DNA from: Rhodocyclaceae bacterium
Lineage (GTDB): Bacteria > Pseudomonadota > Gammaproteobacteria > Burkholderiales > Rhodocyclaceae
Length of the DNA: 40,375 nucleotides
Assembly (NCBI GenBank): GCA_020445665.1
Contig: JAGRGD010000200.1
Location: 1 to 40,375, forward strand
Direction of reading: 5' to 3'
Part shown: in pieces, positions 3,320 to 40,375 of the stretch
Numbering within the stretch: position 1 is the stretch's first letter
Layout of the letters: the number at the start of each line of letters is the position of its first letter
Made by a program: the position numbers and the translations under genes
Notes under the pieces: generated by a model
What the model saw: only the letters and a program-made list of their open reading frames with translations
The model's database searches: none
What the model was told of the DNA's origin: nothing

Positions 3320-3410
3320 TATCGGTGACCGGAGAATCCTGTGCAGAACTATTTGTTTACAATAAAAAACAATTGGTTATCGGGTTGATAAGGTGTTGGT
3401 AACGGTGTGG
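3320..3410. promoter_or_regulatory. AT-rich divergent promoter region rsuA/earP
   Basis: The stretch around 3345-3395 (with TTTACAATAAAAAACAATTGG) is sharply AT-rich compared with the flanking genes and lies between the two divergent starts. It probably contains both promoters, but I cannot assign confident -35/-10 pairs by eye. Confidence 0.4.
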
Positions 3411-3490
3411 ATTCATTGGGTAAGAATTCGGAATGGAATCGCCCCGCCAGCCATGTCGGGGCGCCGGACGATGTCGTCACCGGGGGCCGC

Positions 3491-4666
3491 ATGAGCCAGC
3501 AGGGACGGGCTCTTCGTCCTGTCGCAGGTGCCTGGGACGTCTTCTGCCGGGTTGTGGATAACTTCGGGGATATCGGCGTGTGTTGGCGGCTGTGCCGGAT
3601 CCTGGTTCGGGAATTCGGCATTCCGGTCCGTCTCGTCGTCGACCGGCCCGAGTACCTCGAGCGGATCGGTGGCGATCCGCACATCGTCTCGAATGCCGCC
3701 ACCGGCGCGGATATCAGTGTCGTCGAGTGGTCCGATGCGTTGCTCCCGACATCAGACACCGGTGTCGTCATCGAGGCGTTCGCGTGTGATCTGCCCGCCG
3801 GCTATGCCTTGCGGATGGCCGCCGACGGCGTGTCCCGCTTGTGGATAAATCTGGAGTATCTGAGCGCCGAGGCCTGGATCGAGGACTGCCACGGGCTGGT
3901 ATCGCGTCATCCGCAACTGGGTCTCGACAAGCATTTCCTCTTTCCCGGCTTCACCGCGCGGACGGCCGGCTTGCTGCGCGAGACTGACCTGCGCGGGCAG
4001 CGGGACCGGTTCAGGACCGATCCCGCCGCCCGGGCATCGACCTGGCTCGCCCTGGGGATGGGTGCGCCAGGGCCGGGCGAGCACCGCGCGAGCCTGTTCG
4101 GCTACGAAAATCCTGCAGCAGGCCCCCTGCTCGACGCGATGGCAGGCGGCGACACGCCATGGACCGTGCTGGTACCGGAGGGGCGAAGCTGCGCCGGGCT
4201 GGCGGCCATCTTCGGTGTGTCGCTGTCATCCCCCGGCGATGCGGTCGTGCGCGGCGCACTGCGGGTCCAGGTCGTGCCTTTCACGGGACAGGACGCCTAT
4301 GACCGCTTGCTGTGGGCCTGCGACCTCAACCTGGTGCGAGGCGAGGACTCGCTGGTGCGCGCCCTCTGGGCGGGCCGTCCTTTCCTGTGGCAGGCCTATC
4401 CGCAGTCCGACCGTGCCCATCTGGACAAGGTGGAGGCGCTGCTCCTCCGATTGTCCGATGGTGTCGGCGACACCCTAGCGACGGATCGGCTCGGTCTCGC
4501 GATGCGGGCCTGGAACGGCGTTCCGGTGGGGGGCGATCCCTGGACGACCCTGCTTGCAGACCTGCCTGCGCTCTGCGTCGGCGTCGAGCGCTGGTCGGTG
4601 GCACTCGAGGGTGGCCCGGAACTCGCCGAAACACTGGTCAACCTGACCGAATCTCGCGTAATATAA
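3491..4666 (+). CDS. earP: EF-P arginine rhamnosyltransferase EarP
   Basis: A 391-residue inverting GT-B glycosyltransferase that transfers rhamnose from dTDP-L-rhamnose to Arg32 of elongation factor P. The N-terminal signature VVDNFGDIGVCWRLCR carries the two conserved Asp (D23, D27), and the C-terminal nucleotide-sugar site reads RGEDSLVRALWAGRPFLWQAYPQ, with E285 and D286. The start is the ATG at 3491; a GTG at 3407 would add 28 residues without family similarity. The efp gene follows after 57 bases, the usual arrangement in bacteria using this modification. Two perfect DnaA boxes (3553-3561 and 3840-3848) lie inside the coding sequence. Confidence 0.94.
   Translation: MSQQGRALRPVAGAWDVFCRVVDNFGDIGVCWRLCRILVREFGIPVRLVVDRPEYLERIGGDPHIVSNAATGADISVVEWSDALLPTSDTGVVIEAFACDLPAGYALRMAADGVSRLWINLEYLSAEAWIEDCHGLVSRHPQLGLDKHFLFPGFTARTAGLLRETDLRGQRDRFRTDPAARASTWLALGMGAPGPGEHRASLFGYENPAAGPLLDAMAGGDTPWTVLVPEGRSCAGLAAIFGVSLSSPGDAVVRGALRVQVVPFTGQDAYDRLLWACDLNLVRGEDSLVRALWAGRPFLWQAYPQSDRAHLDKVEALLLRLSDGVGDTLATDRLGLAMRAWNGVPVGGDPWTTLLADLPALCVGVERWSVALEGGPELAETLVNLTESRVI
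3553..3561 (-). promoter_or_regulatory. DnaA box within earP
   Basis: TGTGGATAA, an exact consensus box on the minus strand, inside the codons for the conserved Val-Val-Asp-Asn. The conserved protein motif partly constrains these bases, so binding is uncertain. Confidence 0.4.
3840..3848 (-). promoter_or_regulatory. DnaA box within earP
   Basis: TGTGGATAA, an exact consensus box on the minus strand. It falls in codons TTG TGG ATA AAT (Leu-Trp-Ile-Asn); the ATA Ile codon and TTG Leu codon are unusual choices in such a GC-rich gene, so the box is not explained by normal codon use. Confidence 0.45.
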
Positions 4667-4723
4667 GCGGTTATCCAAACGCCGCCGGTACCGGACCGGC
4701 AAGAGACCAGTCAGGAAAATCGC

Positions 4724-5281
4724 ATGAAAACTGCACAGGAACTTCGCTCGGGCAACGTCATCATGGTCGGCGCCGACCCGCTGGTGGTGCAGAAGACCGA
4801 ATACAACAAGTCGGGCCGCAACGCCGCCGTCGTCAAGATGAAGCTCAAGAACCTCCTGACCGGTGCGCCGTCCGAGACGGTTTACAAGGCCGACGACAAG
4901 TTCGAGGTCGTGATCCTCGAGCGCAAGGAAGTGACCTTCTCCTACTACGCCGACCCGATGTACGTCTTCATGGACGCCGAGTACGAGCAGTACGAGGTCG
5001 AAGCCGAGAACATGGAAGACGCGCTGAAGTATCTCGAGGACGGCCTGGCCTGCGAGGTGGTCTTCTACAACGGCAAGGCGATCTCGGTGGAACTGCCCAA
5101 CAGCGTCGTGCGCGAGGTCACCTACACCGAGCCTGCCGTCAAGGGCGACACCTCGGGCAAGGTGCTCAAGCCGGCCAAGATCGGGACCGGATTCGAGCTG
5201 ATGGTGCCGGCCTTCGTCGAGATCGGCGACAAGATCGAGATCGACACCCGGACGGACGAATACCGCAACCGGGTGAAGTAA
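4724..5281 (+). CDS. efp: Elongation factor P
   Basis: A 185-residue elongation factor P, which binds between the P and E sites of the ribosome and relieves stalling at polyproline. The three beta-barrel domains are full length, and the C-terminal signature ([16 protein letters not shown]) is intact. The modified-loop residue is Arg32 (KSGRN at 29-33) instead of the Lys of beta-lysylated EF-P, which fits the adjacent earP. It probably shares a transcript with earP, and an AT-rich TAATATAAG at 4659-4667 in the gap might add an internal promoter. A strong intrinsic terminator follows at 5299-5328. Confidence 0.98.
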
Positions 5282-5896: not shown

Positions 5897-6169
5897 TCAC
5901 GGCAGCTGGCGGGGCACCGGATACTTCCGGCTGAACGCGGTATAGGCCTTGCGCAGTTGCTTCTCCTCGTCCAGCTGGCCTCTCTCGGCGGCGAGCTCGA
6001 TCAGGCTGCGGTGCATCTGGTGCAATACGAAGATGCCGCGCAGATCGGCCAGCAACTGGTGGCCGAGTTCTGCCGCGACGATCAGGGGCAGATCCTCGTG
6101 CCGTGCGATCACCTCGATTGTCGCCGCGTCCAGATCGACGAAATCCAGGCAGTCCGTCAAACTCAGCAT
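5897..6169 (-). CDS. Small conserved protein of unknown function
   Basis: A 90-residue soluble, mostly helical protein (MLSLTDCLDFVDLDAATIE...). I see no motif that fixes a function. The start at 6169 has an excellent Shine-Dalgarno (GGAGGAGAGAG) and is preferred over an in-frame start at 6247. It is downstream of and in the same direction as the hydrogenase/kinase operon, with about 180 bases between, so cotranscription is possible but not shown. Confidence 0.65.
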   Translation of the reverse strand: MLSLTDCLDFVDLDAATIEVIARHEDLPLIVAAELGHQLLADLRGIFVLHQMHRSLIELAAERGQLDEEKQLRKAYTAFSRKYPVPRQLP

Positions 6170-6351
6170 GTCTCTCTCCTCCCGCCGAGGGTACACACCG
6201 CCGGGGCACCGGATTGGTGCCGACGCTTCGACAATGGTGCGCACCACGGCACTGCCGGCCCGGTGATTCCGGGCTCAACGATCTGATTGAGTGAGCTTAT
6301 TCTGGATCGAGCCCCAGCGCTCGGCAGTCCCGCCCTGAAAACTCAGGCAAT

Positions 6352-8448
6352 TTACGTACCTGTCCCGCGCATGGCCTGGGGCACATCGCTGCAGCGGGGA
6401 ACCAGGACCGAGAACACGGCGCCCCCGTCGGGATGGTTCCCGGCCGAGACATGACCGTCGTGCAACTGCACGATCTCGCGGGTGATGGCCAGGCCGAGGC
6501 CGGTTCCGCCCGCGCCCGTCTTGGTCTTCGAGCTCTGGACGAACTTGTCGAAGATCGACTCCACTTCGTTCTCCGGGATGCCGACCCCCTGATCCCTCAC
6601 GCTGACGCGCAGCGCGGGGCGGCCGTTCGCCAGTTCGCCATCGCTGAAGGAAACGACGATCTCGCTGCTTGGCGGAGAGAACTTCACGGCGTTGGACAGC
6701 AGGTTCTGGATCACCGCGTGGAACTGGCGTGGATCGACCAGCGCGCAGGTGTCCGGCGTGGCGCTGGCAAACCGGATCGTGACCTGTCGTCCATCGGTCA
6801 GGGCACGGAGATCCTGGCCGATCGCCGACGCCAGCCCCTGAACGTCGGTGCGCTCGAGCTGGAGCTTCATCTGCCGCGCCTCGAGCTTGGCGAGGTCGAG
6901 CAGATCGTTGACCAGCTCGCCGAGCCGGTTGCCGCTCTTGATGATGCTCTCGAAGTAGGTGCGCAGCTTGTCCGGCGGCGCGCTGTCCACCTTCTTGAGG
7001 CCCAGCGCCGCGAAGGAGCCAATGCCGTGGAGCGGGGTACGGAACTCGTGGGACATGTTGGCCAGGAACTCGCTCTTGGCCTGGTTGGCCCGCTCGGCCT
7101 GCTCCTTGGCCTCGAGCAGGTCCGCGGTCTGGCTGGAGACCAGCTCTGCGAGGTGATCCCGGTGCAGCTGCAGTTCCTGCTGCGCCAGCTTGCGCTGGGT
7201 GATGTTCTTGAGCGTTCCCCGGTAGCCGGTGAAGTGCCCTTCGTCATCGAATATCGGGCGGCCGCTCGAACTCAGCTAGTCCCATCCCGCGACCGGCTCG
7301 CTCAACTGGAACTCGAAGTCGCGAAACTCCTCATGGCGCGCCATCACCGCATCGATGTCGGCAAGGGATCGACGTTGTGCGTCGGTTTCGTTGCTGGCGA
7401 TCGAGAAGAGGTTGACGCCCACCAGATCCTCGCGCCCGAAGACCGGACGGTTGAAGCATAGCGAGGCATCCACCTCCCAGAAGCCGTCGGACGACACGGC
7501 GCTGAAGTCACGGAAGCGCTGCTCCGAGAGCTGCAACTGCTTCTCGCGCTCCCGCAGCAGGGTGATGTCCGAAGCAACCAGGACCGCCCCTTCGAGCTTG
7601 CCGCTGCGTTCATAGAGGGGGGTGCCCCGGATGATGAAATGCTTTCTGGCGTCGCCACCGGCGGCGTGGGCCAATGCCGTCTCGAAGGCCAGCTGGCCGC
7701 GCTCGAGGATGGTCCGGAAGAGGGTCAGGCCCGTGGGGAGGTAGGCATTGGCGGTGGCCTCGCGCAAGGCCTCAAGGCTCTGGGGGGAGAGCAGGACATC
7801 GCTCGGTTCGTTCAGCACGTCGGCCGCACGGAATCCGAGTTCCCGCGTCACTGCGGCGTTGATCTGGCTGATCCGCCCCTTCGCATCGAGCACGATGAGG
7901 AGGTTCTCCATGCTGTTGATGACGTTGTCGACGAAGCGTCCGAGGCGCCCCTGTTCGCGACTGCGCTTTTCCAGCTGCTGGGATTTCTCCGACAGCTCGG
8001 CGATCATGCCCTCCATCACCTCGCTGATGCTCGTGACCTGCGACTCCAGCACCGAGTTGGCCTCACGCAGGGCGTCGAGTTCCTCGCGCAGGGACGAAAC
8101 CTCGTCCGCCTCACCGAAATCGGGCAGGCAGTCCTTGCGTTGCAGGAAGTACTGGCCATCGCGCTCTTCGACGTCAAAGGACTGGACGTTCGACTCCACC
8201 GGCACCTTCAGGCCGTGGGCGCCACAGATCAGGTTGCCCTCGGCGTCGCTGCGGCAACGATCCATGCGGCTGCCATCGTGGGGGCACAGGGCCGGAATGC
8301 CGATCAGGCGCCCACCGCGCTCGAGGATCAGCACATGGGTTTCTGCCGTGCGGCCGGGCACCTGGATATGGCCACACCAGCGGCGGTCCTGGCCGGCCAC
8401 CGGACTGACCTCGCGAATCGGGATGACGATGGAGCGCATGGAGCTCAC
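6352..8448 (-). pseudogene. Rieske-PAS-PAS hybrid sensor histidine kinase, interrupted by an amber codon
   Basis: A 698-codon sensor kinase, colinear in one frame except for a TAG at codon 391. A Rieske [2Fe-2S] domain (C55-P-H57 and C75-x-x-H78) is followed by a coiled coil (about 113-170), PAS1 (172-295), PAS2 (about 305-425, holding the stop), HisKA with phospho-acceptor His467 in [10 protein letters not shown], and HATPase_c (N-box [10 protein letters not shown], then DQGVGIP and GTGLGLA). No transmembrane segment is present, so it is cytoplasmic. The start is a GTG at 8448 with GGAGG 7 bases upstream and a 4-base overlap with the protease stop. As written, the first ORF is a sensor without kinase, and the kinase half has no good start except ATG 7056. 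No response regulator is adjacent. Confidence 0.85.
7276..7278 (-). other. In-frame amber codon in the kinase gene
   Basis: CTA on the plus strand reads TAG in the kinase frame, immediately after Gly-Trp-Asp in PAS2. The next codons ([21 protein letters not shown]) continue the typical PAS core without loss of frame. The change could be a nonsense mutation, a sequencing error or a recoded stop. Confidence 0.9.
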
Positions 8449-8891
8449 GTCAGCGCCTCCATGACCGCACGGGTCACCTGCGGCAGGGCAGCCGCCACCG
8501 GGGCGGACAGGCCGGGCCGGAAGGCGTCCAGTCGCGCCGCCTCGACACCGATCACGCGTACCCGGGGCGGCCGCGGCAGCGCGGCGCGCACCGTCTCCAG
8601 CAGTCGGCCGACGCCGGCACCGTGCCCGGCGCCGCACTCCGCAGCGACAGCTTCGGCGGGCAGGCAATGCACCGAGCCCGGCTCGCCGAAGCCGCCGAGC
8701 ACGTCCACCACCACCACGGCGTCGCAGGCGTCGAAGCAATCGATCGCAGCCGGGCTTGCCGCGTCGGCGCGCATCAGGCGGACACCCTCAGGCAGCTTGG
8801 TGCGGGACAGGGCCGCGTGCACCGCCGGACCGAATCCATCGTCGGCATGCAGCTCGTTGCCGAAGCACACCACGTGGGTTCTAGACGCCAT
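8445..8891 (-). CDS. [NiFe]-hydrogenase maturation endopeptidase
   Basis: A 148-residue HyaD/HupD-type protease that removes the C-terminal peptide of a hydrogenase large subunit after Ni insertion. It begins with the family motif GNELHADDGFG, and the three Ni-sensing ligands are visible as Glu13, Asp63 (VVVVDVL) and His90 (AGHGAG). The ATG at 8891 lies inside the end of the large-subunit gene (11-base overlap), which fits translational coupling; the frame can extend to 8948 but without similarity. Its partner is almost certainly the adjacent large subunit, which has a 12-residue tail after the last ligand His. Confidence 0.92.
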   Translation of the reverse strand: MASRTHVVCFGNELHADDGFGPAVHAALSRTKLPEGVRLMRADAASPAAIDCFDACDAVVVVDVLGGFGEPGSVHCLPAEAVAAECGAGHGAGVGRLLETVRAALPRPPRVRVIGVEAARLDAFRPGLSAPVAAALPQVTRAVMEALT

Positions 8892-10416
8892 AGCGGAACC
8901 GCCGACCGCTGCCGGCAAAATGGACCGTGCACACCAGGCACGGGTCATGGGAACGGACGATATGGCCCAGCTCCACCGGATCGGCCTCGTCCGCCAGCTG
9001 GAGGCCGATCACACTTTGCTCCCAGTGACCGTGCCGGCCCGCGCTGTCCTTCGGCGAGGCGTTCCAGGCCGTCGGCGTCACGATCTGATAGCGACTGATG
9101 CGCCCATCCTCCACCTGCATCCAGTGGCCCAGCGTGCCCCGCGCGGCCTGCACGATGCCAAAGCCCTCGCCCTGTTCGAATGCGCCTTCGGGGGGATGCC
9201 GGTAGTGGGGTTCCCCGATCCGGCGGGCCAGGGCATCGACCTGCCCGCGCATCAGCGCCAGGGTCCGGGCGGCCCGGCGCAGCCGCGCGAACTGGCGCAG
9301 CCAGGTGTTGGGCCCGAGGGTCGCGAGGATATCCCGGCACAGGGCGTCGCCGGCGGCCAGCAGCTCGGCCAGCGGACCGGTCTCGACCACCTGCTCGCCA
9401 TAGCGGGGTGCCTTGGCCCAGGTGTAGCGATCGCTGCCGGGCTGGTAGTCGGGGACCGTCTCGCCTTCGAACGGGTGGCGGCCGCCCGCGTAGGACCGGA
9501 ACCAGGAATGGCGGACGTGCTCGGTGATCCGGTCCGGATCGAAGGGTGCCAGGGTGCCGCCGTCGGCCTCGAAGATGCCGGCTGCCAGCAGTGTTTTCTG
9601 CTCTCCGCACGGGGGGCCCCAGCTGTCCGGGTCGTGGTAGCTGCCGCCGGACAGGAAGGTGCGGGCCCCGCCACCGATCCGGTCCAGGCCGACGGAGCGG
9701 CTGAAGTTGCAGAACAGGGTCATGGCCCGCTCGGCCCGGACTGGCTCGGCCAGCCAGCGCTCGAGGGCGGCGAGGGTGTCCAGGGCCAGGAAGGCCTCGA
9801 GCCGGTCGCCGAGCACATCGTCCTCGAGCCAGGCGACCGTCGACTCGACCAGCTCGCGGCAATCGACGATATCGCGGGCATTGGCGCCGCGGGTCACGCC
9901 GCCGGGCAGCATGTAGGACGAGTGAGGCCATTGGCCGCCGAAAATCGCCACCACCTGCAGGATGCGGCGCGTCACGCCGAGGGCACCGAGTACCGCGCTG
10001 CCCTTCATGGGCTGGAAGGCCCGCGCCACCGCCGCCGCCATCGGGTGATCCCCGTAGCGGGGATTGAGGAAGTCGGGCACGAAGAACAGGAAGGTCTGGC
10101 GCAGGTCGCTCTGGACGTTCTCGGCCATGAGGCAGAGGTTGCGGATCAGGGTCGCCTGGGGCGGTACCGGCAGCTGAGCGAGCCGCTCGAGGGCCAGCAC
10201 CGCAGTGTAGAGATGTGCTGTGCCGCAGATGCCGCAGACCCGGGGCGTGATGACCAGAGAGTCGCGGGGGGCGCGGTCCACCAGCAATTGCTCGAAGCCC
10301 CGGAACAGGGTGCCGATGCAGCGGGCGCCGACGATCCGACCGTCCTCCAGGTCCACTTCGAACTCCAGGTCGCCCTCGACCCGGTTGAGATCGATGCCGA
10401 GTGTCTTTCGGGCCAT
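8881..10416 (-). CDS. [NiFe]-hydrogenase large subunit (group 2-like)
   Basis: A 511-residue catalytic subunit. The L1 motif RVCGICGTAH supplies Cys61 and Cys64, and the L2 motif DPCLVCTVH supplies Cys493 and Cys496, so the NiFe(CN)2CO site is complete. A tail of 12 residues follows His499 and is the likely target of the neighbouring protease. DPCLVCTVH is the form I associate with cyanobacterial uptake (HupL) and H2-sensing (HupV/HoxC) enzymes of group 2. No transmembrane partner (cytochrome b) or NAD-linked subunit is nearby, so a soluble role is likely. The start is the ATG at 10416, 2 bases after the small-subunit stop. Confidence 0.93.
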   Translation of the reverse strand: MARKTLGIDLNRVEGDLEFEVDLEDGRIVGARCIGTLFRGFEQLLVDRAPRDSLVITPRVCGICGTAHLYTAVLALERLAQLPVPPQATLIRNLCLMAENVQSDLRQTFLFFVPDFLNPRYGDHPMAAAVARAFQPMKGSAVLGALGVTRRILQVVAIFGGQWPHSSYMLPGGVTRGANARDIVDCRELVESTVAWLEDDVLGDRLEAFLALDTLAALERWLAEPVRAERAMTLFCNFSRSVGLDRIGGGARTFLSGGSYHDPDSWGPPCGEQKTLLAAGIFEADGGTLAPFDPDRITEHVRHSWFRSYAGGRHPFEGETVPDYQPGSDRYTWAKAPRYGEQVVETGPLAELLAAGDALCRDILATLGPNTWLRQFARLRRAARTLALMRGQVDALARRIGEPHYRHPPEGAFEQGEGFGIVQAARGTLGHWMQVEDGRISRYQIVTPTAWNASPKDSAGRHGHWEQSVIGLQLADEADPVELGHIVRSHDPCLVCTVHFAGSGRRFRYGV

Positions 10417-10418
10417 GC

Positions 10419-11360
10419 TCAGGGTTCCATCTCGCGCTTGATCAGGCGCACCGGCGCGGCGGCCTTGGCCAGGTTCTTGTACGCCATGTAGCGGGCCCGC
10501 GAGACACCGAGCGGCAGCGTCACCGGCACGTCGCCGATCTTGTCGGTACGGAACAGGTCGCCGTCGCGGGGGAAGTCGGGCGAGGTGCAGCCGAAGCACG
10601 GCACGCCGGCGCGGGTCTTGCTGCTGCGGTTGTTCCACAGCTCGCCGTTGCAGTTGGCCAGCGTGCTCGGCCCCTGGCAGCCGAGATTGAAGTACATGCA
10701 GGCCTTGCCACCGGGCTCGCGGTCCTCGACGTCATACTCGTGGTACTCGTTGCGGGTGCAGCCCTGGTGAACGGTGGAGGCGAAGAACACCTGTGGCCGG
10801 TTCAGGAAGTCCAGTTCGAACGGCGTGCCGGTCGCCAGCATGGACAGGGTGCGGGTGATGGTCAGCGGGTGCACCGGGCAGCCGGCCAGGTTGATCACCG
10901 GCCGGCCGTCGCCGGCACGCCAGTCCTCGCCCAGCAGGCCCCCCGGGTCGGCGTGGTCGTACTGCAGGCCGATGCTGTCGGACGGGTTGGGCGGTGCGGC
11001 GTGGACGCCGCCGAAGGCCGCGCAGGTACCAACCGCCACGACGGTCCGGGCGCGGGCCGCCAGGGCGCTGACGATCTGCATCTTGGGCCGGCCACGGTGG
11101 CTGTCGAACATGCCGGAGCCGTAGGGCCCGGTGACGATGCTGCCCTCGATGCAGAGGATGTCCAGGCCTTGTTCGCCTGACTCGATCCGCTCGACGAGCG
11201 TAGCGAAGTAGCCCGACGGGGCGTCGGTCAGGGACGGGTGCCAGAGCAGTTCGATTGCGCCGCTGCGGATCAGTCCTTCGATGGACGGGCCGTCGGCGGT
11301 CAACAGGGACATGCTGTCGCCGCTGCAGGCGCCGGTCTGCATCCACAGCATATTGGGCAT
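10419..11360 (-). CDS. [NiFe]-hydrogenase small subunit (group 2-like, Asp in proximal site)
   Basis: A 313-residue electron-transfer subunit with three Fe-S clusters. There is no Tat signal, so the enzyme is cytoplasmic. The N-terminal proximal-cluster motif is C12-S-G-D15 where most hydrogenases have CxxC, so Asp15 replaces a Cys. The other ligands are present: VGTCAAFGG, AGCPVHP, the His/Cys set for the distal cluster (TVHQGCT, KACMYF, LGCQGP) and the medial set (NCNGELWNN, CFGCTSPDFP). LLWHPSL and the C-terminus resemble cyanobacterial HupS, which has Asn at the same position as I recall. The start at 11360 has GGAGG 8 bases upstream. It is the first gene of the leftward operon. Confidence 0.92.
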   Translation of the reverse strand: MPNMLWMQTGACSGDSMSLLTADGPSIEGLIRSGAIELLWHPSLTDAPSGYFATLVERIESGEQGLDILCIEGSIVTGPYGSGMFDSHRGRPKMQIVSALAARARTVVAVGTCAAFGGVHAAPPNPSDSIGLQYDHADPGGLLGEDWRAGDGRPVINLAGCPVHPLTITRTLSMLATGTPFELDFLNRPQVFFASTVHQGCTRNEYHEYDVEDREPGGKACMYFNLGCQGPSTLANCNGELWNNRSSKTRAGVPCFGCTSPDFPRDGDLFRTDKIGDVPVTLPLGVSRARYMAYKNLAKAAAPVRLIKREMEP

Positions 11361-11528
11361 GGTTTGCCGCCTCCAAAGCAATTCGCCCCTTGTTTTCGAG
11401 GCGTATCGCTAGAGAACGGGAATCGAAATCATAACTTTAATGAAATCCGACCGATGTCAGGCGGCGCCCGGAACCCGCGCCACGCGACTAGAATCTTCAC
11501 CTCCCCAGCGGCCCGATCCAACCCCTCC

Positions 11529-14500
11529 ATGCCCAAGACTGCGCCCGAGCCAGCCGACGCCATCCGCATCCGCGGCGCCAGCCAGAACAACCTCGCCGGC
11601 CTCGACCTCGACATCCCCCTCAACGCGCTGGTGGTCGTGACCGGCGTGTCGGGTTCCGGCAAGAGCTCGCTGGTCTTCGACACCCTGTATGCCGAGGGAC
11701 AGCGGCGTTACGTGGAGACCTTCTCCCCTTACGCCCGCCAGTTCCTCGACCGCATGGACAAGCCACGGGTGGACCGCATCGAGGGGGTGCCGCCGGCCAT
11801 CGCGATCGACCAGACCAACCCGGTGCGCACCTCCCGCTCCACGGTCGGGACCATGACCGAGTTGGCCGACCACTTCAAGCTGCTCTACGCGCGCGCCTCG
11901 CACCTCGCCTGTCGCGGTTGCGGCGAGCCGGTGCGGCGCGACACCACGGCCTCTATCGCCGACGACCTCGCCAACCGGGCGGCGGCGGCGGGCGACCCGC
12001 GGCTGGTGATCTGCGCGCCGGTGGCGGTCCCTGCCAACTTCAGCGAAGACGAGATCGTCGGCCTGCTCGAGCGCCAGGGCTACACCCGCATCCACGCCCG
12101 CGGTGAGCGCGGCCTTCAGGTGGTGCAGGATCGCTTCCGCCTCGGCGGGGCCGAGCCGGCGCGGGTCGCCGAGGCCCTCGAGGCCGCCCTGCGACTCGGC
12201 CAGGGCCACGTCCATGTCCATGCCCTCGGCGACGACGGCGACGCGGTCTGGCCTTACAGCTCCGGCCTGCACTGCGCCGAGTGCAACATCGACTATCCCG
12301 AGCCGACCCCCAGCCTGTTCTCGTTCAACTCGCCGATCGGCGCCTGCGAGACCTGCCGCGGCTTCGGCCGGGTGATCGGCGTCGATTTCGGCCTCGTCAT
12401 CCCCGACGAGACGAAAACCCTCGCCGAAGGGGCGGTCAAGCCCTGGCAGACCGAGAGCTATCGCGAATGCCAGGACGACATGGCGAAGATGGCCGCGAAG
12501 TACGGCGTCGCAATGGACGTGCCGTTCCGCGACCTGCCGCCGGAGCACCGCCGGTGGGTGCTGGAGGGCGACCCGGCCTGGAAGAGCTGGTCGTCGTCGT
12601 GGCCGCGCAAGTGGTACGGCGTGCGCCACTTCTTCGAGTGGCTCGAGACAAAGGCCTACAAGATGCATATCCGGGTGCTGCTGTCGCGCTACCGCAGCTA
12701 CAGCGAGTGCCCGGCCTGTGGCGGCGCGCGGCTCAAGCCCGAGGCCCTGCTGTGGCGGCTGGGCAGTGAGCCTGCGCTGGCCATGCATGAGTTGATGGCC
12801 CTGCCCATCGACCGGGTCGCCACCTTCATCGACGCCCTCGCCCTGCCCGCCCCCCTCGACGAAGCCACCGAGCTGCTGATGGGCGAGATCCGTTCGCGGC
12901 TTGCTTACCTGCAGCAGGTCGGCCTCGGCTACCTGACCCTCGACCGCCAGTCGCGGACGTTGTCCGGCGGCGAGGTCCAGCGCATCAACCTGACCACCGC
13001 GCTGGGCACCTCCCTGGTCAACACCCTGTTCGTGCTGGACGAGCCGTCGATCGGCCTCCACCCGCGGGACATCGGCCGCATCCTGCAGGTGATGGCGCGC
13101 CTGCGCGACGCCGGCAACTCGCTGGTGGTGGTTGAGCACGACCCGCAGGTGATGTTCGCGGCCGACCGGCTGCTCGACATCGGCCCCGGTCCGGGCGAGC
13201 GGGGCGGCCGTATCGTCGCCTACGACACCCCCCGCGCGGTGGCCGCCGACCCGGCCTCACTGACCGGCGACTACCTCGCCGGGCGCCGGCGGGTGGACCG
13301 CCACCGGGTGCCCCGGCCGGTCGATCCGGCCGGTCCGGCGCTGGCGCTGCGTGGCGCCCGCCAGCACAACCTGGCGGCCATCGACGTGCGCTTTCCCCTC
13401 GGCCACCTGGTATGCATCACCGGGGTGTCCGGTTCGGGCAAGTCGACCCTGGTGCAGGACGTCCTCCACCCGGCGATGGCCAAGCACTTCGGCCAGCCGA
13501 CCGAGGCACCTGGGGCTTTCGATGCCCTCGACGGGGCCGAGGCCCTCGGCGACGTGGTGTTCGTGGACCAGTCGCCGATCGGCAAGAGCTCCCGCTCCAA
13601 CCCGGTCAGCTACGTCGGCGCCTGGGACGCCATCCGCAAGCTCTTCGCGGCCCTGCCCGAGGCCCGCGAGCGGGGCTACACACCGGGCACCTTCAGCTTC
13701 AACTCGGGCAACGGCCGCTGCCCGACCTGTACCGGCTCCGGCTTCGAGCATGTCGAAATGCAGTTCCTGTCGGACGTCTACCTGCGTTGCCCGGACTGCG
13801 ACGGCCAGCGCTACCGGCCGGAGATTTTGGCCCTCGCCTGGCGCGGGCATTCGGTCGCCGACGTGCTCGAGATGACCGTCTCCGAGGCCGTCGCGGCCTT
13901 CGCCGACCAGCCGGCGGTGGTGGCGGCGCTGGCGCCTATTGCCGAAGTCGGCCTGGACTACCTGCGCCTCGGCCAGCCGGTGCCGACCCTCTCCGGCGGT
14001 GAGGCCCAGCGCCTCAAGCTGGCCGGCCACCTGGCGAAGGCCGCCGAGGCCGCCCGCAAGCGCAAGCGCGGCCCCCGGGGCCTGCCCACCCTGTTCCTCT
14101 TCGACGAGCCGACCACCGGCCTGCACTTCGAGGACGTCACCCGCCTGATCGGCGCCTTCGAGCGCCTCCTCGACAGCGGCCACTCGCTGCTTGTGATCGA
14201 GCACAACCTGGACGTGATCGCCGCCGCCGACTGGCTCATCGACCTGGGCCCCGAAGGGGGCGAAGGCGGTGGCCGGATCGTCGCCGAGGGTAGCCCGGCG
14301 GACGTTGCGGGTGATCCGGCCTCCCACACCGGCGTGGCCCTGGCGGCCTACGAGGCCGAGCTCGCGCGGCTCGCGGCCGACGCCGCGGTGCCGGCCGTGG
14401 CCGAGGCGCCGGCCCGCTACCGGGCCCTGGCTGCGCCCGCGATCGAGATCCGACACGCCCGCGAACACAACCTCAGGAACATCAGCCTGACGATCCCCCG

Positions 14501-17000
14501 CGACGCGCTGACGGTGATCACCGGCCTGTCGGGATCGGGCAAGTCCACCCTCGCCTTCGACATCGTCTTTGGCGAAGGCCAGCGTCGCTACCTGGAGTCG
14601 CTCAATGCCTACGCGCGCCAGTTCGTCCAGCCGGCCGCGCGGCCCGATGTGGATGGCCTCTTCGGCATCCCGCCCACCGTCGCCATCGAGCAGCGGGTGT
14701 CCCGCGGCGGACGCAAGAGCACGGTCGCCACGCTGACCGAGATCCAGCCCTTCCTGCGCCTGCTCTACGTCAAGCTGGGCACCCAGTACTGCCCGGACTG
14801 TGATGTGGCGGTACGCCCCCAGAGCTTCGAGGCGATCGCCGCCCAGATCCTGGCCGACTTCGACGGCCGCTCGGTCGAGCTGCTCGCGCCGCTGGTGGTG
14901 AACCGCAAGGGGCTCTATACCGACCTCGCCAAGTGGGCGCGGGGCAAGGGCTTCGAGCAGCTGCGGGTCGACGGTGACTACCTGCCGACCCGCAAGTGGC
15001 CGCGCCTCGACCGCTACAAGGAGCACAATATCGAGCTGCCGGTGGGCATGGTCGCCATCCGGCCGGACCACGAGACCCAGCTGCGCGAACAGCTGACCCT
15101 GGCGCTCGAGCACGGCAAGGGGGTGGTCCAGGTGCTGGCGATCTGCCAGCTCGGCGCGACGCCGCTCACCTTCTCGACCCTGCGCGCCTGCCCGGGCTGC
15201 GGCACCAGCTTTCCCGAGCCGGACCCGCGCCTGTTCTCGTACAACGCCAAGCACGGTTGGTGCCCGTCGTGCTACGGCACCGGCCACAAGACCCATGGCA
15301 AGGTGGAAGACCCGAACGCCCTCGAGCTGGGCGATGCCGAGCAGCTTTCAGACGAAACCTGCCCCGCCTGCGAGGGCGCCCGCCTGAACCCGGTGGCGCG
15401 CGCCGTGCGCTTCCGCGACCTGGGCATCCACGAGCTGGCCGCCCGGCCGGTCAACCGGGTGGCCGACTTCTTCGCGGCCCTGACCCTCGACCGGCGCGAG
15501 GCCGACAGCGCCCGTGACGTGGTCGCCGAGATCGGCGGGCGGCTGGCCTTCCTGCGCCAGGTCGGCCTCGACTACCTGGCGCTGGACCGGGCCGCGCCGA
15601 CCCTGTCCGGCGGCGAGGCCCAGCGCATCCGCCTCGCGGCCCAGCTCGGATCAAACCTGCGCGGGGTCTGCTACATCCTCGACGAACCGACGATCGGTCT
15701 CCACCCCCGCGACAATGACCTGCTGCTCGATACCCTGACCGCCCTGCGCGACCGGGGCAACACCCTGATCGTCGTCGAGCACGACGAGGAGACCATCCGC
15801 CGCGCCGACCACGTCATCGACCTGGGGCCGGGGGCGGGCATCGAAGGCGGCGCCGTGGTCGCCGAGGGCAGCCTGGAAGACCTGAGGCGGGCGCCCGATT
15901 CGGCCACCGGGCGCTGCCTGCGCGAGCCCCTGCGCCGCCCGATGCAGGCCCTCCGCAAGATCGCCGCCGACCACCCGTCGATCACCCTGCGTGGGGCCTC
16001 GCTGCACAACCTCAAGCGGATCGACCTGCGGGTGCCGCTGGGGCGGCTGAGTGTCGTCACCGGCGTCTCTGGCTCCGGCAAGTCCACCCTCGCCCGCGAT
16101 GTACTGCATGCCAACCTGGCGCGCCACCTGGCCGGCGATACCACCATCAGTGGCTGCACCGCCTTCGAGGGCTGGGACCAGGTCGGGCGCGTGCTGGAGG
16201 TTGACCAGACCCCGATCGGCAAGACCCCCCGCTCCTGCCCTGCCACCTACATCGGCTTCTGGGACGCGATCCGCAAGCTCTTCGCCGACACCTTCGATGC
16301 CCGCACCCACGGCTGGAAGGCCAACCGCTTCTCGTTCAATACCGGTGCGGGCCGATGCCCGGTGTGCGAGGGCCAGGGCCAGGTGACCGTCGAGATGAAC
16401 TTCCTGCCGGACGTCAAGGTGCCCTGCGACGCCTGTGGCGGCGCCCGCTTCAACCGGGAGACCCTGGCGGTGCGCTGGCGCGATCGCACCATCGCCGAGG
16501 TCCTGGCGATGCCGGTCGCCGAGGCACGCGGATTTTTCGCTGCGCACCCGTCCATCGCACACCCGCTGGCCCTGCTCGACGACGTCGGGCTCGGCTACCT
16601 GACCCTTGGCCAGCCCAGCCCGACCCTGTCGGGGGGCGAGGCCCAGCGCATCAAGCTGGTGGCCGAGCTGGCCAAGGTGCGGGGCGACAAGGGGGTGCTG
16701 AAGCCGGAGAAGCACACCCTCTACGTCCTCGACGAGCCCACCGTCGGCCTGCACATGGCCGACACCGAGAAGCTGATACGTGTGCTCCACCGCCTCGTCG
16801 ATGCCGGCCACAGCGTGCTCGTGATCGAGCACGACCTGGATCTGATCGCCGAGGCCGACTGGATCATCGACCTGGGCCCGGAAGGGGGCGGGGCCGGCGG
16901 CGAGATCGTCGTGCAGGGGCCGCCGCCGCGCGTCGTGAAGTGTGCCGCCTCCCATACCGGGCGCTTTCTCAAGAGACTCCTGCAGCGGCGAGCGGAATAG
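11529..17000 (+). CDS. Double-length UvrA-family excinuclease ATPase
   Basis: A 1823-residue protein made of two complete UvrA-like units in tandem, about twice the length of ordinary UvrA (about 940). Four ABC Walker A motifs (GVSGSGKSS or GLSGSGKST) lie near 39, 631, 999 and 1512, each with a signature LSGGE[AV]QR and a DEP Walker B. Cys-rich zinc modules recur ([24 protein letters not shown] with [31 protein letters not shown] with CDACGGARF). Such giant UvrA paralogues occur in proteobacteria and accompany a normal uvrA; a role in DNA lesion recognition is inferred. The ATG at 11529 precedes the usual [12 protein letters not shown] start. No interruption is seen. Confidence 0.92.
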
Positions 17001-35999: not shown

Positions 36000-36179
36000 A
36001 GCCTAGCCCTCCAAAGGATAGAAAGTCGTTCGCTAATTGGACCCGTCCGAGTGAAACTGGATTCGAAGGCCTCCCCCTGAACCTTCTCATAATCCTAGAA
36101 GTCAGTCAGTGCCCGGTGTCAGGTGAATACCGTTTCAGTACAACCAGGTCAAACGAATGGGGTCACCACATGATCCATG

Positions 36180-36506
36180 TCACGTGCTCCGCGACAAGCA
36201 ATACAAGAATGACGGATCAGAATCATCAAGTTCCATCGCAGACAGCAATCTACTCAATGCTGTACGATCTTCATCATTCATCGCAATTGCATCTTCAATC
36301 AGATGATCGCAGAGAATCTCTAAAGCTAGCGGATCTTCGTCGTTCTCTACGTACGACATCACCCCGTCTAGCATGTCATCAGCTAGCCGTCCTCTGAAGC
36401 TTTCAGCGAAATACGCAATCTCTTTTTCAAACATGTTGTTCGCTTGAACACCTATCAGGTGATAGATGACATACCGCGCTTCAAAGGTAAGTCGCTTGTA
36501 GGACAT
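36180..36506 (-). CDS. Probable immunity protein (MafI-like)
   Basis: A 108-residue acidic, helical protein. The central sequence SYVENDEDPLALEILCDHLIE follows the pattern of MafI- and colicin-type immunity proteins (acid-rich Y-x-x-N-x-E, L-A-L-E-x-L-C-D). It has no adjacent toxin gene, so it is an orphan immunity gene in the array. The ATG at 36506 is chosen for fit to the family, with a weak Shine-Dalgarno. Base composition is lower in GC than the core genome. Confidence 0.65.
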   Translation of the reverse strand: MSYKRLTFEARYVIYHLIGVQANNMFEKEIAYFAESFRGRLADDMLDGVMSYVENDEDPLALEILCDHLIEDAIAMNDEDRTALSRLLSAMELDDSDPSFLYCLSRST

Positions 36507-36648
36507 GAGGGGCGGCTCCAGGTAGCGTGTGAGGGTCGCACTGCCACACTACCAGCGCCGCTTTTCATGTCCACCCAGGAATACGGAAGTGGTGCGCATG
36601 GATGTTGAATCCACTGCCACCTTTCATGACGCCATTGCAACTGGGAGG

Positions 36649-37029
36649 TCAAACAACGACATCCATTGGAGCTCGGCAGCTCGATTTTACGAATCGACCC
36701 CACTCAACCAGTGCCTGCCGAAATGAAACTAATAAAACTCGTTCCGAACAGTCGTCATCGAAGAGTGAGCAAATTTCTACCTCTGACCTGCTTAGCCTAG
36801 CTCCCCACGCATCCCGATCCCAACTACTCTCTGAGAGAGCCCCCGCAAGAACCTGGTCTACTCTCTGAACCCCTAAATCCAGATACTTCGATGACGCGTC
36901 AAGTCCTTGCCCGCCGTCGTCCATGAGAAGGCACGACAGTGGACTAAGTGCGCCTGGTTCAGTGTCGATTTCTTCACAAACAGGGATTTCAAGCGCGCCA
37001 ACGCGATTCCAAGAAAATCGAAGCTTCAT
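36649..37029 (-). CDS. Small acidic protein, orphan of the immunity array
   Basis: A 126-residue acidic protein (MKLRFSWNRVGALEIPVCEE...) with no family I recognise. Its size, charge, orientation and low-GC composition match the other members of the array downstream of the toxin. EWGRFVKSS near the C-terminus is typical of toxin-island immunity proteins in tone, but this is not diagnostic. A conserved short repeat lies 90 bases upstream of its start (37119-37132). Confidence 0.5.
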   Translation of the reverse strand: MKLRFSWNRVGALEIPVCEEIDTEPGALSPLSCLLMDDGGQGLDASSKYLDLGVQRVDQVLAGALSESSWDRDAWGARLSRSEVEICSLFDDDCSERVLLVSFRQALVEWGRFVKSSCRAPMDVVV

Positions 37030-37118
37030 CCATATACCTCGCGAAGACTGGGGTCTAGATATGTTGCACGCGCGAAGTGACGAGAGGTTGGGAGGCCGTG
37101 GCTGCTACAAGGCTAGAC

Positions 37119-37132
37119 CTGACCCCATTGCT
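37119..37132 (+). repeat. Direct repeat CTGACCCCATTGCT, copy A
   Basis: A 14-base sequence identical to 38192-38205. The core TGACCCCATT also occurs inverted at 36156-36165. All three lie at or near module borders of the accessory island, so they may be insertion-element ends or recombination sites. Confidence 0.6.
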
Positions 37133-37292
37133 CCGCTGCGCTAGGCGATGTCCTCAAAAAACTGCGGCCTGGCACACCCCTCTTAAACGCCTCACTTACT
37201 TCGTACCTGATCCTCGCCTTTGACCAAAAAGGCGGGAAGAACGTTGATCTTTGTGGTTTTCCACTGAACGAAACCTTGTCCACCCAATCGCC

Positions 37293-37490
37293 CTATTCTC
37301 CGGTAATCCGATTCACCCAGTCCGGGTTCCAGATCTGCACCTCAGCCTCGAATGTTCCGTTCGAATTGTATTGAATGGGGCTTCCCGGCTTGATCCGCGG
37401 CCTGCCATTGGCGGCAAACCCGGCCTGAACGACCAGCGTCCACTAATCCGACCCAGGTTTCGTGTTCAAACGAATGGGACCACCTCTGTA
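37293..37490 (-). pseudogene. Possible toxin-tail remnant
   Basis: In one minus-strand frame this stretch reads YRGGPIRLNTKPGSD, a stop (37443-37445), then QAGFAANGRPRIKPGSPIQYNS and a short tail ending WNPDWVNRITGE. The composition and the compact C-terminal look recall displaced CdiA/RHS-type toxin tips. It has no start codon of its own, lies directly downstream of an orphan gene, and has a stop inside. The assignment is tentative. Confidence 0.25.
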
Positions 37491-37501
37491 GCTTTGGCGA
37501 C

Positions 37502-37951
37502 TCAACAGGAATCCGGCTCGTGGACAATCTCGAACCTTGATCCGATGACCCCTTCTCGCCCGAACTCCAACTCAGCTTCCCTAAGCGACCTCCAAACCGA
37601 TAAGCTCGCACGGACCAATCCAAAGTCGAACTCCTTTGGAGCCGCATCTACATCGGACTTGTCTGGCGCGTACTCGTTTGCGACTAGCAACGCAGGTGGA
37701 AAGCCGGACTGGGTTCTGATCCAAGCCGTTTTGCCGTTCATTTCGAAAAGCGGAATATCTCCGCCGTCCAATTGGCTTTCCCTAGAGAGCATTCCTTCAA
37801 CCGAAGCTAGGTCGCTCAACGATAATTCAGAAACAAACTCTAGAAGAAAGTCGGTAACTGTTCTAACCACGGCTCCGCGACAGTTCTCCGCGAAAAGGCT
37901 CGAAACGATCAAGCCGCCGCCTAGATCCTGACACTCTGCAACAATTCTCAT
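37502..37951 (-). CDS. Hypothetical protein, orphan of the immunity array
   Basis: A 149-residue acidic protein (MRIVAECQDLGGGLIVSSLFAENCRG...) with a hydrophobic central strand (GKTAWIRTQSGFPPALLVANEY) and no motif I can name. Its orientation and size fit the immunity array. It is separated from the toxin-linked immunity gene by insertion-sequence remnants, suggesting that the array was rearranged by transposition. Confidence 0.5.
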   Translation of the reverse strand: MRIVAECQDLGGGLIVSSLFAENCRGAVVRTVTDFLLEFVSELSLSDLASVEGMLSRESQLDGGDIPLFEMNGKTAWIRTQSGFPPALLVANEYAPDKSDVDAAPKEFDFGLVRASLSVWRSLREAELEFGREGVIGSRFEIVHEPDSC

Positions 37952-38009
37952 GGTTCAAGTATTGGCCAGCCTCGCCATCTGCTCACGTTAGGATCTAGGG
38001 TAATGGAAA

Positions 38010-38195
38010 ATGGGTCACAATCCCATCCTCAAAGACTTCGGAGAGCGGCTACGGTCTACAGGGCTGGCACCAAAGGCGGTTATCGGTGCGGCCATGCGCA
38101 AGCTCGTGCACCTGATCTATGGCGTCGTCCGATCTCGCTTGCCATTTAGGGCAGATTTCAACCGACCAGCGCTTGACGGGCAAGACGGTATCTGA
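38010..38195 (+). mobile_element. IS110-family transposase C-terminal remnant
   Basis: The 61-residue frame (HNPILKDFGERLRSTGLAPKAVIGAAMRKLVHLIYGVV, ending ALDGQDGI) matches the very end of IS110-type transposases, where MRKLVH and the terminal QDGI are characteristic. A stop lies at 38001-38003, so nothing upstream remains. It is a fragment and cannot be active. Confidence 0.75.
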
Positions 38196-38205
38196 CCCCA
38201 TTGCT
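38192..38205 (+). repeat. Direct repeat CTGACCCCATTGCT, copy B
   Basis: Exact copy of 37119-37132. It lies at the junction between the IS110-type and IS30-type remnants, overlapping the last bases of the IS110 fragment. Confidence 0.6.
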
Positions 38206-38217
38206 TGCATTGCTCCC

Positions 38218-38355
38218 TGCAACTTCAGCGAGATCAGCGACAAGGAACTTGCCGCCGTAGTCAGAAAGATCAAACATCGAGCCCCCAAATGCCTCGGCTA
38301 CCGATCGCCTCACGAGGTCTTTCAGGAAGCCAAACGTGGTGCGCTTGGAATGTGA
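38218..38355 (+). mobile_element. IS30-type transposase C-terminal remnant
   Basis: The frame reads CNFSEISDKELAAVVRKIKHRAPKCLGYRSPHEVFQEAKRGALGM and stops at 38355. The K-C-L-G-Y-R-[ST]-P-x-E-V-F motif is the C-terminal signature of IS30-type integrase-fold transposases. Only about 45 codons remain, with no DDE catalytic core, so it is inactive. Confidence 0.75.
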
Positions 38356-38428
38356 ATTCAGCCTGGCTCTACTGTCTCAAACCGTGGCCGGCTGGACTTG
38401 CGATGCCATGGAAATAATTAGCGTTTCC

Positions 38429-39037
38429 TTAGTAAGCTTGGAGTTTCCAAAGATCCATTGATCCGAATTTCCAATATGCGAATTTGTCGGGAATGAGTAG
38501 ATTGAAGTCTGTTCCGGCGCTGGAGTCCCAAGCCTCGCCAGGAGGTACTAGCATTTCATGAGATTGCTCCCAATCTGTATGCCTAAATATCAGCCTTCGA
38601 AAATTGATATAAAAGGATGGAAGCCTGCACTTAAGTGATCCGAACTCTGGGGCAACGGACGTACCGGTGGACAGCGCCTTCTCCAATTCCGTGTATGCAG
38701 CAGATAGGAAGTCAAGGCTTCGCCCGTGCAAGAGAAGCTTCGCCATAGTCTCATTGGCAACTTCCCATGCGTCCGTAGCGTCAATATAAGTATCGAAGTT
38801 GTCAGCGGTCAGGACCAGAGCGCCTCCTCTGTAGGTCGATAGCGCGGCAGCGTGCTGGTCCGGAGTGATAAATCGTCGCTCCAGCATCGCTGCGAAACTC
38901 AGCCTAGGGTCGATCGAAAAGTTTTGCTTTTCATCTATAACAAAGCGAATGCAATTGCCAAAATCGAATGCAGCAATTGCGAGCTCTCCCGCCCAAAGCT
39001 GTTGAACTGCCTCGTCAAGGTTGATAGCCGAATTCAC
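38429..39037 (-). CDS. Probable cognate immunity protein
   Basis: A 202-residue soluble acidic protein (MNSAINLDEAVQQLWAGELAIAAFDF..., ending MDLWKLQAY) of unknown family. It overlaps the 3' end of the toxin gene by 23 bases and is transcribed in the same direction directly after it, the standard place for the immunity gene of a CdiA-type toxin. Composition is lower in GC than the core genes. Function is inferred from position alone. Confidence 0.7.
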   Translation of the reverse strand: MNSAINLDEAVQQLWAGELAIAAFDFGNCIRFVIDEKQNFSIDPRLSFAAMLERRFITPDQHAAALSTYRGGALVLTADNFDTYIDATDAWEVANETMAKLLLHGRSLDFLSAAYTELEKALSTGTSVAPEFGSLKCRLPSFYINFRRLIFRHTDWEQSHEMLVPPGEAWDSSAGTDFNLLIPDKFAYWKFGSMDLWKLQAY

Positions 39038-40375
39038 TATAGAACTCCTCCTCGCTTAGCACTCTGGCGCCAGACGAGCTGGACTGAAGTTGGTGATCCC
39101 AGATCTTAGGAAACTCGATTGATATAGATGGTTTGCCAATGTTCTCGTCGACCCACTTGGGGGCGGTACGGTCACGAGGTATTCCAGGCACGGGGCGTTG
39201 AGGCACGAGGCTTGACATGATCTCATTGTGCAAATCAGATTCAAGATTGAATACAATCACGCTTCCGCCAGATCTTCGATTTTGCAGATAGTACAGTGCG
39301 TGCGACGGCCCGCCCGTACTCAAGCAGAGCTGCCCTGGGCAGCTAGAATCAATTGTCACGGTACCGTCGGGATTGGCGACCATCCTCTCCACGCTAGTTC
39401 TTGCACCGCTTCCCCCGCCCTGCACCCTAAAGTAGGTTTCAGTATCCTGCACGATGGGGGTGGGCGGCTTAAAGTCGGTAGGAAGCGCCTGTTGGCTGCC
39501 GTCCATTTCGTGCAGTGTGCCCGACCACGATGCCCCTCTATGCTGCGCGGGTGTGTCCCATGTGATGAGCGCAGTTATTGGACGTTCTGCATCCATCAAC
39601 ACTGGACCAAAAGCGTCTGCAAATGCTCTCACTACTGGTCTTAGAACCTTTGGTCCATACCCCCCCGACGCAACCCCCAACACCCCCCACAGCCGACTGG
39701 TCTCTTCGCCAAACAGATCCTGGCCAGTCGTCAGAATCGTATAGCTCTCCACCTCACCACCGATGGGGCTCATGGAGTAGACGAAGGTGCCGCCTCTCAC
39801 CGCGACGCCGCCAACAGAGGCGTCGTAGGCGGTAACGTAGTGCCCTTCGCTGACCAAGGGCATGCCAAGTTCGTCGGTGCCGAACACGCGGCCCGGCACA
39901 AACACCCGCTCGCTCTCGACTGGCCGGCTCAGCAGGCTGGAGATGGCCTGCGCGTTGTGCTCCGGAACTTGCGCGTTCAGTTGGTCGAATTGCCCCGCAT
40001 CGAGGGGGTCACGCTCTTCGGCCTGCCAGGCGAACTGATAGCCCTCTCCAGCCAGGGCGCCCGAGTCAACGAGAGTCTGAAGGTGAGTGACGTCGCCGGT
40101 TTCGGAAGCTTCCAGCGTTGCGATCAGTAGCTCGGTATTGTTCTGGCCCGAGATGAGGTCGTACTTGGTGTCGACGTCTGCCACGTCGCAATCGGCGTCG
40201 CGCTCACACAGCGTGTGCTCTTCGTTGTAGTCGCGCTCTTCCTGATGGGTCAGGAAGTTATTCCTCGCCGCATTCCCCGCCGCCCCCTGCGCCGTATCCT
40301 GATCCACCCCGAACTCCCAGGCGATCCCCCGCGCAAGGAGTTCGTTGCCGAGTTGATACCCGGCAGTGGCGTAGC
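39015..40375 (-). CDS. C-terminal part of a filamentous-haemagglutinin/CdiA-type polymorphic toxin (5' end outside window)
   Basis: The frame is open to the right edge (452 residues visible). It opens with YATAGYQLGNELLARGIAWEFG, then RNNFLTHQEERDYNEEH, resembling the pretoxin junction of CdiA/FHA proteins. An Asp/Glu-rich linker and a beta-rich segment follow. The tip (about 312 to the end) contains YFRVQGGGS at 314-322, a later GTVTI..LCLSTGGPSHALYYL strand (about 338-363), SVIVFNL and APKWVD. I associate FRVQGGGS with a widespread toxin tip whose strands resemble ADP-ribosyltransferases; that assignment is inference. The gene ends 23 bases inside the immunity gene. Confidence 0.8.
   Translation of the reverse strand, partial: YATAGYQLGNELLARGIAWEFGVDQDTAQGAAGNAARNNFLTHQEERDYNEEHTLCERDADCDVADVDTKYDLISGQNNTELLIATLEASETGDVTHLQTLVDSGALAGEGYQFAWQAEERDPLDAGQFDQLNAQVPEHNAQAISSLLSRPVESERVFVPGRVFGTDELGMPLVSEGHYVTAYDASVGGVAVRGGTFVYSMSPIGGEVESYTILTTGQDLFGEETSRLWGVLGVASGGYGPKVLRPVVRAFADAFGPVLMDAERPITALITWDTPAQHRGASWSGTLHEMDGSQQALPTDFKPPTPIVQDTETYFRVQGGGSGARTSVERMVANPDGTVTIDSSCPGQLCLSTGGPSHALYYLQNRRSGGSVIVFNLESDLHNEIMSSLVPQRPVPGIPRDRTAPKWVDENIGKPSISIEFPKIWDHQLQSSSSGARVLSEEEFYSEFGYQP

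Follow-up and report, generated by a model that had tools for sequence, protein, structure and literature searches.

A Rieske module encoded behind a hydrogenase suggests a path from hydrogen to cell signalling

A four-gene unit with an interrupted kinase gene

We analysed a window of 40,375 nt, by which we mean the whole stretch of contig JAGRGD010000200.1 taken from the Rhodocyclaceae bacterium assembly GCA_020445665.1 (genome G000). Four genes follow one another on its minus strand, in the order small subunit (11360-10419), large subunit (10416-8881), protease (8891-8445) and kinase (8448-6352), with a gap of 2 bases between the first two and overlaps of 11 and 4 bases at the next two junctions. 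This bears out an earlier note on the same DNA, which had placed a kinase directly behind a hydrogenase and its protease and had described its start as coupled to the protease by a 4-base overlap; the GTG start of the kinase shares GTGA (8445-8448) with the protease stop. The coordinates given there for the kinase, 6352..8448, also stand, with the strand corrected to minus. A plus-strand reading of 6352-8448 was dropped, as the plus strand holds no such gene.

10419..11360, minus strand: [NiFe]-hydrogenase small subunit, 313 aa (Pfam PF01058 and PF14720)
8881..10416, minus strand: [NiFe]-hydrogenase large subunit, 511 aa (Pfam PF00374)
8445..8891, minus strand: hydrogenase maturation protease, 148 aa (PF01750; TIGR00072 above cut-off)
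6352..8448, minus strand: gene of a Rieske-coiled coil-PAS histidine kinase, interrupted by a TAG; the frame starts GTGAGC
8134..8430, minus strand: Rieske domain, residues 7-105 (boundaries from the model)
8215..8286, minus strand: Rieske ligand motif C55-P-H57 ... C75-G-A-H78 (from the sequence)
7924..8109, minus strand: long helix and putative coiled coil, residues 114-175 (AlphaFold2 helix 114-189)
7552..7935, minus strand: PAS1, residues 172-299 (PF08448, PF00989)
7174..7524, minus strand: second, diverged PAS-like region, residues 309-425, containing the TAG (putative boundaries)
7276..7278, minus strand: in-frame TAG, codon 391 of a frame of 699 codons, final stop included
6877..7080, minus strand: HisKA, behind the TAG (PF00512, E 2.9e-20)
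6397..6735, minus strand: HATPase_c, behind the TAG (PF02518, E 1e-27)

The small subunit has ACSGD at the proximal-cluster position and lacks a twin-arginine signal, and the large subunit carries DPCLVCTVH followed by a 12-residue C-terminal extension. For both, the closest solved structures are those of Huc: the best PDB matches were 7uur_D (Hydrogenase-2 small subunit, E 4.4e-79) and 7uus_A (Hydrogenase-2 large subunit, E 9.7e-101), structures that we take to be from M. smegmatis. The maximum of 19-residue hydropathy was 0.96 for the kinase, 1.41 for the small subunit and 1.65 for the large subunit, and by this measure a clear transmembrane segment was absent from the kinase and the small subunit.

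The PAS-PAS-kinase layout proposed previously held in part. Pfam recognised PAS1, HisKA and HATPase; the second PAS is weak, with Pfam finding a single PAS stretch in the window protein and PAS_3 matching the second region in four of 11 relatives. All four proposed Rieske ligands, C55/H57 and C75/H78, do lie in the minus-strand frame, forming a CxH and a CxxH about 17 residues apart. The Rieske family PF00355 scored 17.2 bits in the window protein, under its gathering score of 20.3 (E 0.0049), and a whole-genome Pfam Rieske search returned eight other places, the window locus not among them. PF00355 matches seven of the 11 A4 members at E 0.01 or better, and eight of the 11 have all ligands. 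In alignment A3, whose rows were chosen for having ligands (two further rows had lost His), the four ligands are invariant in nine of nine ligand-bearing rows, the non-window rows being 26-83% identical to the window. Across six same-genus gene pairs, dN/dS of the Rieske domain was 0.08 between the window and G003 and up to 0.27 elsewhere.

The domain as modelled by AlphaFold2 (pLDDT 85, pTM 0.77) had Rieske ferredoxins and oxygenases as its best 48 PDB matches, with probabilities of 0.66-1.00 and a best E of only 0.011; some of these 48 we took to be Rieske proteins from their titles. The top PDB match of a longer, 190-residue AlphaFold2 model was also a Rieske ferredoxin (E 0.017). On these models, the N-terminus of the window protein is predicted to have a Rieske fold, as in the Rieske ferredoxins of ring-hydroxylating dioxygenases. 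Those ferredoxins carry the CxH...CxxH ligand set and, to our knowledge, are stand-alone electron carriers, unfused to signalling domains.

Of the features of a HoxJ/HupT-type hydrogenase-linked kinase, the gene contains PAS, HisKA and HATPase, but in this copy the TAG splits PAS1 from HisKA and leaves a predicted window protein of 390 aa without the kinase core. The same-genus orthologues G003, G002 and G005, which are 77%, 68% and 67% identical to the window protein over the first 390 residues, are open throughout (3/3). The first start codon listed past the TAG is an ATG at 7056, inside HisKA, and a restarted product would therefore miss part of that domain. The earlier note had overlooked the TAG, and its working relay from H2 to phosphorylation is not borne out for the window copy. 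Since the assembled reading frame stops at codon 391, this genome probably has a broken relay; in relatives the relay is probably intact.

The TAG may reflect a recent inactivation or a base-call error in the draft assembly, both being compatible with the data. We hold it slightly more likely than not that the window copy is a pseudogene in decay; its first 390 residues may keep the ability to bind the hydrogenase, but the unit would have no output in this genome. In addition to the TAG itself, amino-acid changes after residue 311 are in excess on the window branch (24 versus 7 on the G003 branch, compared with 10 versus 11 before that residue; Fisher p 0.039 for the before/after contrast), and dN/dS just behind the TAG was 0.35 for window-G005 versus 0.15 for G003-G005. 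A natural precedent for a kinase-dead protein also exists in C. necator H16: the available text of PMC10073562 describes the phosphorylating activity of its HoxJ as knocked out. However, the nonsynonymous/synonymous comparisons were not significant (p 0.064 between branches and 0.16 within the window branch), dN/dS behind the TAG for window-G003 (0.16-0.17) resembles that of the intact pair G002-G005 (0.16-0.19), the kinase motifs past the TAG look intact by eye, and a base-call error may itself account for the stop. The pseudogene reading concerns the window copy alone and is compatible with the explanation that we favour for the type.

Affinities of the hydrogenase

In a concatenated tree, the 12 Rieske rows that were placed all fell in one 18-row hydrogenase clade (100/100), a clade label tested against 2a and 2b rows only. 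They occupy three places within it, namely a kinase group, G625 and G889 (a long branch of unsure placement), a scatter that an old Rieske domain with several losses, or transfer, would explain. A second clade comprised 11 family members with large-subunit identities of 45-49%, which are accompanied by kinases or a GGDEF protein and gave no Rieske match. Three large-subunit matches, in G347, G104 and G167, have E about 1e-109 and a stop close to their end; we regarded them as HupV-like and excluded them. At L062, L108, L120, L121 and L125, all of the second clade, the frame that comes after the kinase has an HD-GYP-like motif, found by regular expression only, hinting at a possible c-di-GMP output there too.

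The wider clade of 29 rows (96/94) branched separately from group 2a (Huc; 100/100, three rows only) and from group 2b (HupUV/HoxBC; 100/100, two rows only), placing the window hydrogenase outside both. Its proximal motif has Asp (CSGD or CGGD) in 27 of the 29 rows and Glu in G447 and G559; the same position is Asn in the three 2a rows and Cys in the two 2b rows. All but one of the 29 rows have a C-terminal extension, the exception being G548 of the second clade, which also gave no protease match. The final His is the last residue of both HoxC and this genome's HupV, and Cys occupies the proximal position in their partner small subunits, whereas the window enzyme has its 12-residue extension, an adjacent protease and a proximal Asp, and so lacks the 2b trait of no extension and no processing. 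A HupUV identity was ruled out by the extension, the protease, the proximal Asp and the tree position. The comparison with HupUV/HoxBC sensors drawn in the earlier note is an analogy, the 2b branch being separate and the window enzyme resembling HydDB 2c: in HupUV/HoxBC with HupT/HoxJ, as in the window unit, a soluble hydrogenase is paired with a PAS kinase.

A HupU/HupV-like pair is present in this genome too, on C213 (L064:4948-7411). It lacks a C-terminal extension, its small subunit shares 72% identity with HoxB, and a search of its 12-kb stretch at 1e-8 gave neither a HoxJ- nor a HoxA-like match.

GGDEF or GGDEF-EAL proteins are encoded behind the hydrogenases of several relatives (Ideonella, G650, G625, G289, G108 and G889). 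Judged by the genes next to its relatives, the window hydrogenase may be 2c-like, its nearest outgroups being diguanylate-cyclase-linked; the references in the trees were of 2a and 2b only. HydDB's class 2c is described, in the part of PMC5037454 available, as diguanylate cyclase-linked, putative and of undetermined role. Compared by description, 2c and the window unit both have a two-subunit hydrogenase adjoining a PAS-bearing signalling protein, but 2c is linked to a diguanylate cyclase and the window unit to a histidine kinase output with a Rieske receiver.

The closeness to Huc bears on a different reading, in which the hydrogenase would chiefly serve uptake and energy conservation, with the Rieske domain as an electron exit like HucE and the kinase as a secondary passenger. 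We consider this very improbable. Huc, an uptake enzyme, is the closest solved structure, and a C-terminal extension with a protease is what catalytic enzymes have. Like the window kinase, HucE is a Rieske-bearing protein whose gene accompanies a group 2 hydrogenase; according to the available text of PMC6883350, it ends in its Rieske domain, is needed for H2 consumption by a group 2a hydrogenase and is the proposed electron acceptor, with the authors leaving a role in maturation open. A profile comparison joins HucE and the window Rieske domain (E 2.6e-8), but over just 53 columns around the ligands, and HucE is a NifU-Rieske protein and not a signalling protein. Moreover, the unit has no conserved gene for a membrane or quinone partner, and all 29 loci of the wider clade have a signalling gene, for a kinase or a GGDEF protein, in the next place. 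Genes for HucE (NifU-Rieske) and NHL-repeat proteins are not in the four-gene unit at 16 loci, unlike in the three 2a reference operons. As a direct source of the window Rieske domain, HucE is unsupported beyond the ligand region.

Distribution and variation of the receiver

We searched with a profile of the N-terminal region in overlapping samples (369 genomes from the class, 199 from the family, 300 from the order and 147 from the phylum) and with single proteins in 41 relatives and in two genera of 10 and 23 genomes, which overlap with the profile-search samples. E cut-offs were 1e-30 for the two-genus searches and 1e-108 for the large-subunit searches, and several searches scored part of the first-look candidates (16 of 28 for G005, for example). 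Across the sampled genomes we found 18 signalling proteins whose N-terminus is of the Rieske type. All four ligands are kept by the kinases of G000 (the window), G003, G002, G005, G416, G561, G519, G438, G874, G862, G863, G878 and G872; G447, G559 and G857 have Rieske-type kinases lacking one or both His ligands; and G625 and G889 have GGDEF-EAL proteins with a Rieske domain and all four ligands. G889 belongs to another class of the phylum, and G625 was first met through its hydrogenase and not through a Rieske search. Thus, 15 of the 18 keep all four ligands, and the receiver keeps company with the hydrogenase although the output changes, from a kinase core (16 of 18) to GGDEF-EAL (2 of 18).

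Seventeen of the 18 sit behind hydrogenase and protease genes, the fetched stretch holding just the protease and part of the large subunit for G857, G874, G862, G863 and G878. The remaining protein, of G872, begins 8 bases from a contig end, where the neighbourhood is unreadable. The earlier note had made the kinase part of the hydrogenase unit and had named homologues found mostly away from hydrogenase genes as evidence to the contrary. The opposite was seen: among the matches read, no Rieske signalling protein away from a hydrogenase turned up in the overlapping samples of 41, 369, 199, 300, 10, 23 and 147 genomes or in one contig scan. The genomic linkage is therefore stronger than that note had stated, and the case of the window genome, with its interrupted gene, is weaker. 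The contig scan returned three same-genus loci (Rhodocyclaceae MAGs HKST-UBA161 to 163) and one weak Blastococcus stretch, and a plasmid search with the Rieske domain alone matched nothing. A 20-bit hit in the family search, G460, had no match to the window's parts at 1e-5.

The receiver is also found without the domain. Beside the same hydrogenase, nine receivers lack a Rieske domain (G424, G498, G877, G866, G875, G650, Ideonella, G289 and G108; for G875 the fetched stretch held just part of the protease). The Rieske cluster is therefore not essential to the type, since three of 18 proteins have lost His ligands and nine receivers have no such domain.

Two of these relatives show further departures. 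In G498 (L104:7539-10757), the protease and a coiled coil-PAS-hybrid kinase share one frame, giving a protease-kinase fusion behind the hydrogenase. In G447 and G559 (L101 and L102), which have lost both His ligands of the Rieske domain, the small subunit also carries Glu where Asp is usual next to the proximal cluster.

A candidate route from hydrogen to the kinase

Close to evenly balanced in our judgement, with a slight tilt in its favour, is the explanation that the four genes make one soluble, H2-responsive signalling unit in which the Rieske domain is the most likely electron acceptor and sets the PAS/kinase part. The hydrogenase, built from small and large subunits and matured by its own protease, would oxidise H2. 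The receiver would be the next-encoded coiled-coil/PAS dimer, normally driving a histidine kinase and presumably in complex with the hydrogenase. Its N-terminal Rieske domain, carrying a putative cluster, would most likely accept electrons from the small-subunit cluster chain; the redox state of this domain, or electron flow through it, would then set the coiled coil and PAS and through them autophosphorylation, with control probably running from hydrogenase to kinase and on to a target regulator. The cluster would serve as electron acceptor or redox gate. In favour of this explanation we count the linkage of 17 of the 18 proteins to the hydrogenase, the exchange of outputs behind a constant receiver, the four ligands retained in 15 of 18, the signalling gene at each of the 29 loci, the hydropathy of kinase and small subunit, and the example of HucE as a proposed electron acceptor.

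The potential of H2 is about -0.41 V. Rieske potentials are described as above -150 mV in the available part of PMC6883350, and transfer from H2 to Rieske would therefore be downhill. Direct electron transfer from the hydrogenase to the Rieske domain is plausible. H2 sensing by HoxBC is said to require continuous H2 oxidation with electron transfer, according to the available text of PMC10073562. Taken further, the data could fit a family of H2 sensors in which hydrogenase electrons pass straight into the receiver's Rieske cluster, the electron being the message in place of a conformational handshake, and in which one kind of receiver drives a histidine kinase in some members and a c-di-GMP enzyme in others; this broader idea we put forward tentatively.

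Several observations count against the explanation that we favour. The nine Rieske-free receivers and the ligand losses of G447, G559 and G857 indicate that signalling can do without Rieske. The unit is absent from two of six same-genus genomes (G001 and G004), and G865 has a related kinase without a Rieske domain, whose 1.5-kb flank shows no protease and no large subunit. Finally, no conserved response regulator gene was found beside the unit across 16 loci.

An alternative that is possible but which we doubt is that the hydrogenase signals to the coiled coil and PAS by contact, as proposed for HoxBC and HoxJ, and that the Rieske domain is a second input (redox or oxygen) gating the H2 signal, or a docking domain. 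Coiled coil and PAS are common to the close receivers, with or without Rieske, and the ligands are lost in three of 18 proteins though the domain is kept. By eye, the C. necator HoxJ also runs from a coiled-coil-like stretch into PAS, with no Rieske domain, which the window kinase adds. According to the text available of PMC10073562, signal transduction by HoxBC is sensitive to high O2. Nevertheless, the Rieske fusion tracks one hydrogenase wherever the surroundings are readable, including in another class, whereas a redox input of general use should also occur on other kinds of signalling protein. Six further weak Rieske matches of the order sample, those lying in open frames longer than 430 aa (G762, G679, G811, G840, G636 and G788), had no kinase H-box or GGDEF motif.

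A receiver with a built-in, spectroscopically visible putative [2Fe-2S] cluster would make the route by which an H2 signal travels from hydrogenase to kinase directly testable, and the natural ligand-loss and domain-loss variants, together with the two outputs (kinase and GGDEF-EAL), would aid the same test. The Rieske unit is a new form of hydrogenase-linked signalling, a category that is itself not new; among the literature matches listed, judged by titles and abstract openings, no Rieske-kinase fusion was found, which does not imply its absence from print. A Rieske module behind a hydrogen-splitting enzyme suggests that some bacteria convert hydrogen to a cell signal through it.

The surroundings of the unit in the window include a 116-aa gene just 3' of the kinase (5897-6247, minus strand), which occupies the same place in all four same-genus loci and in which no Pfam family was found above cut-off. 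On the plus strand, a gene for an EarP rhamnosyltransferase (3407-5281) lies directly 5' of one for elongation factor P (the latter identified by eye), presumably the known pair. Also on the plus strand, 11238-17000 is a 1920-aa open frame with UvrA domains, which we take to be about twice the usual UvrA length; the corresponding frame is 1832 aa in one same-genus locus and is cut by the stretch end in another. Finally, G+C falls to 0.52-0.55 at 36001-40000, compared with 0.62-0.72 elsewhere in the window, and this stretch is possibly foreign DNA.
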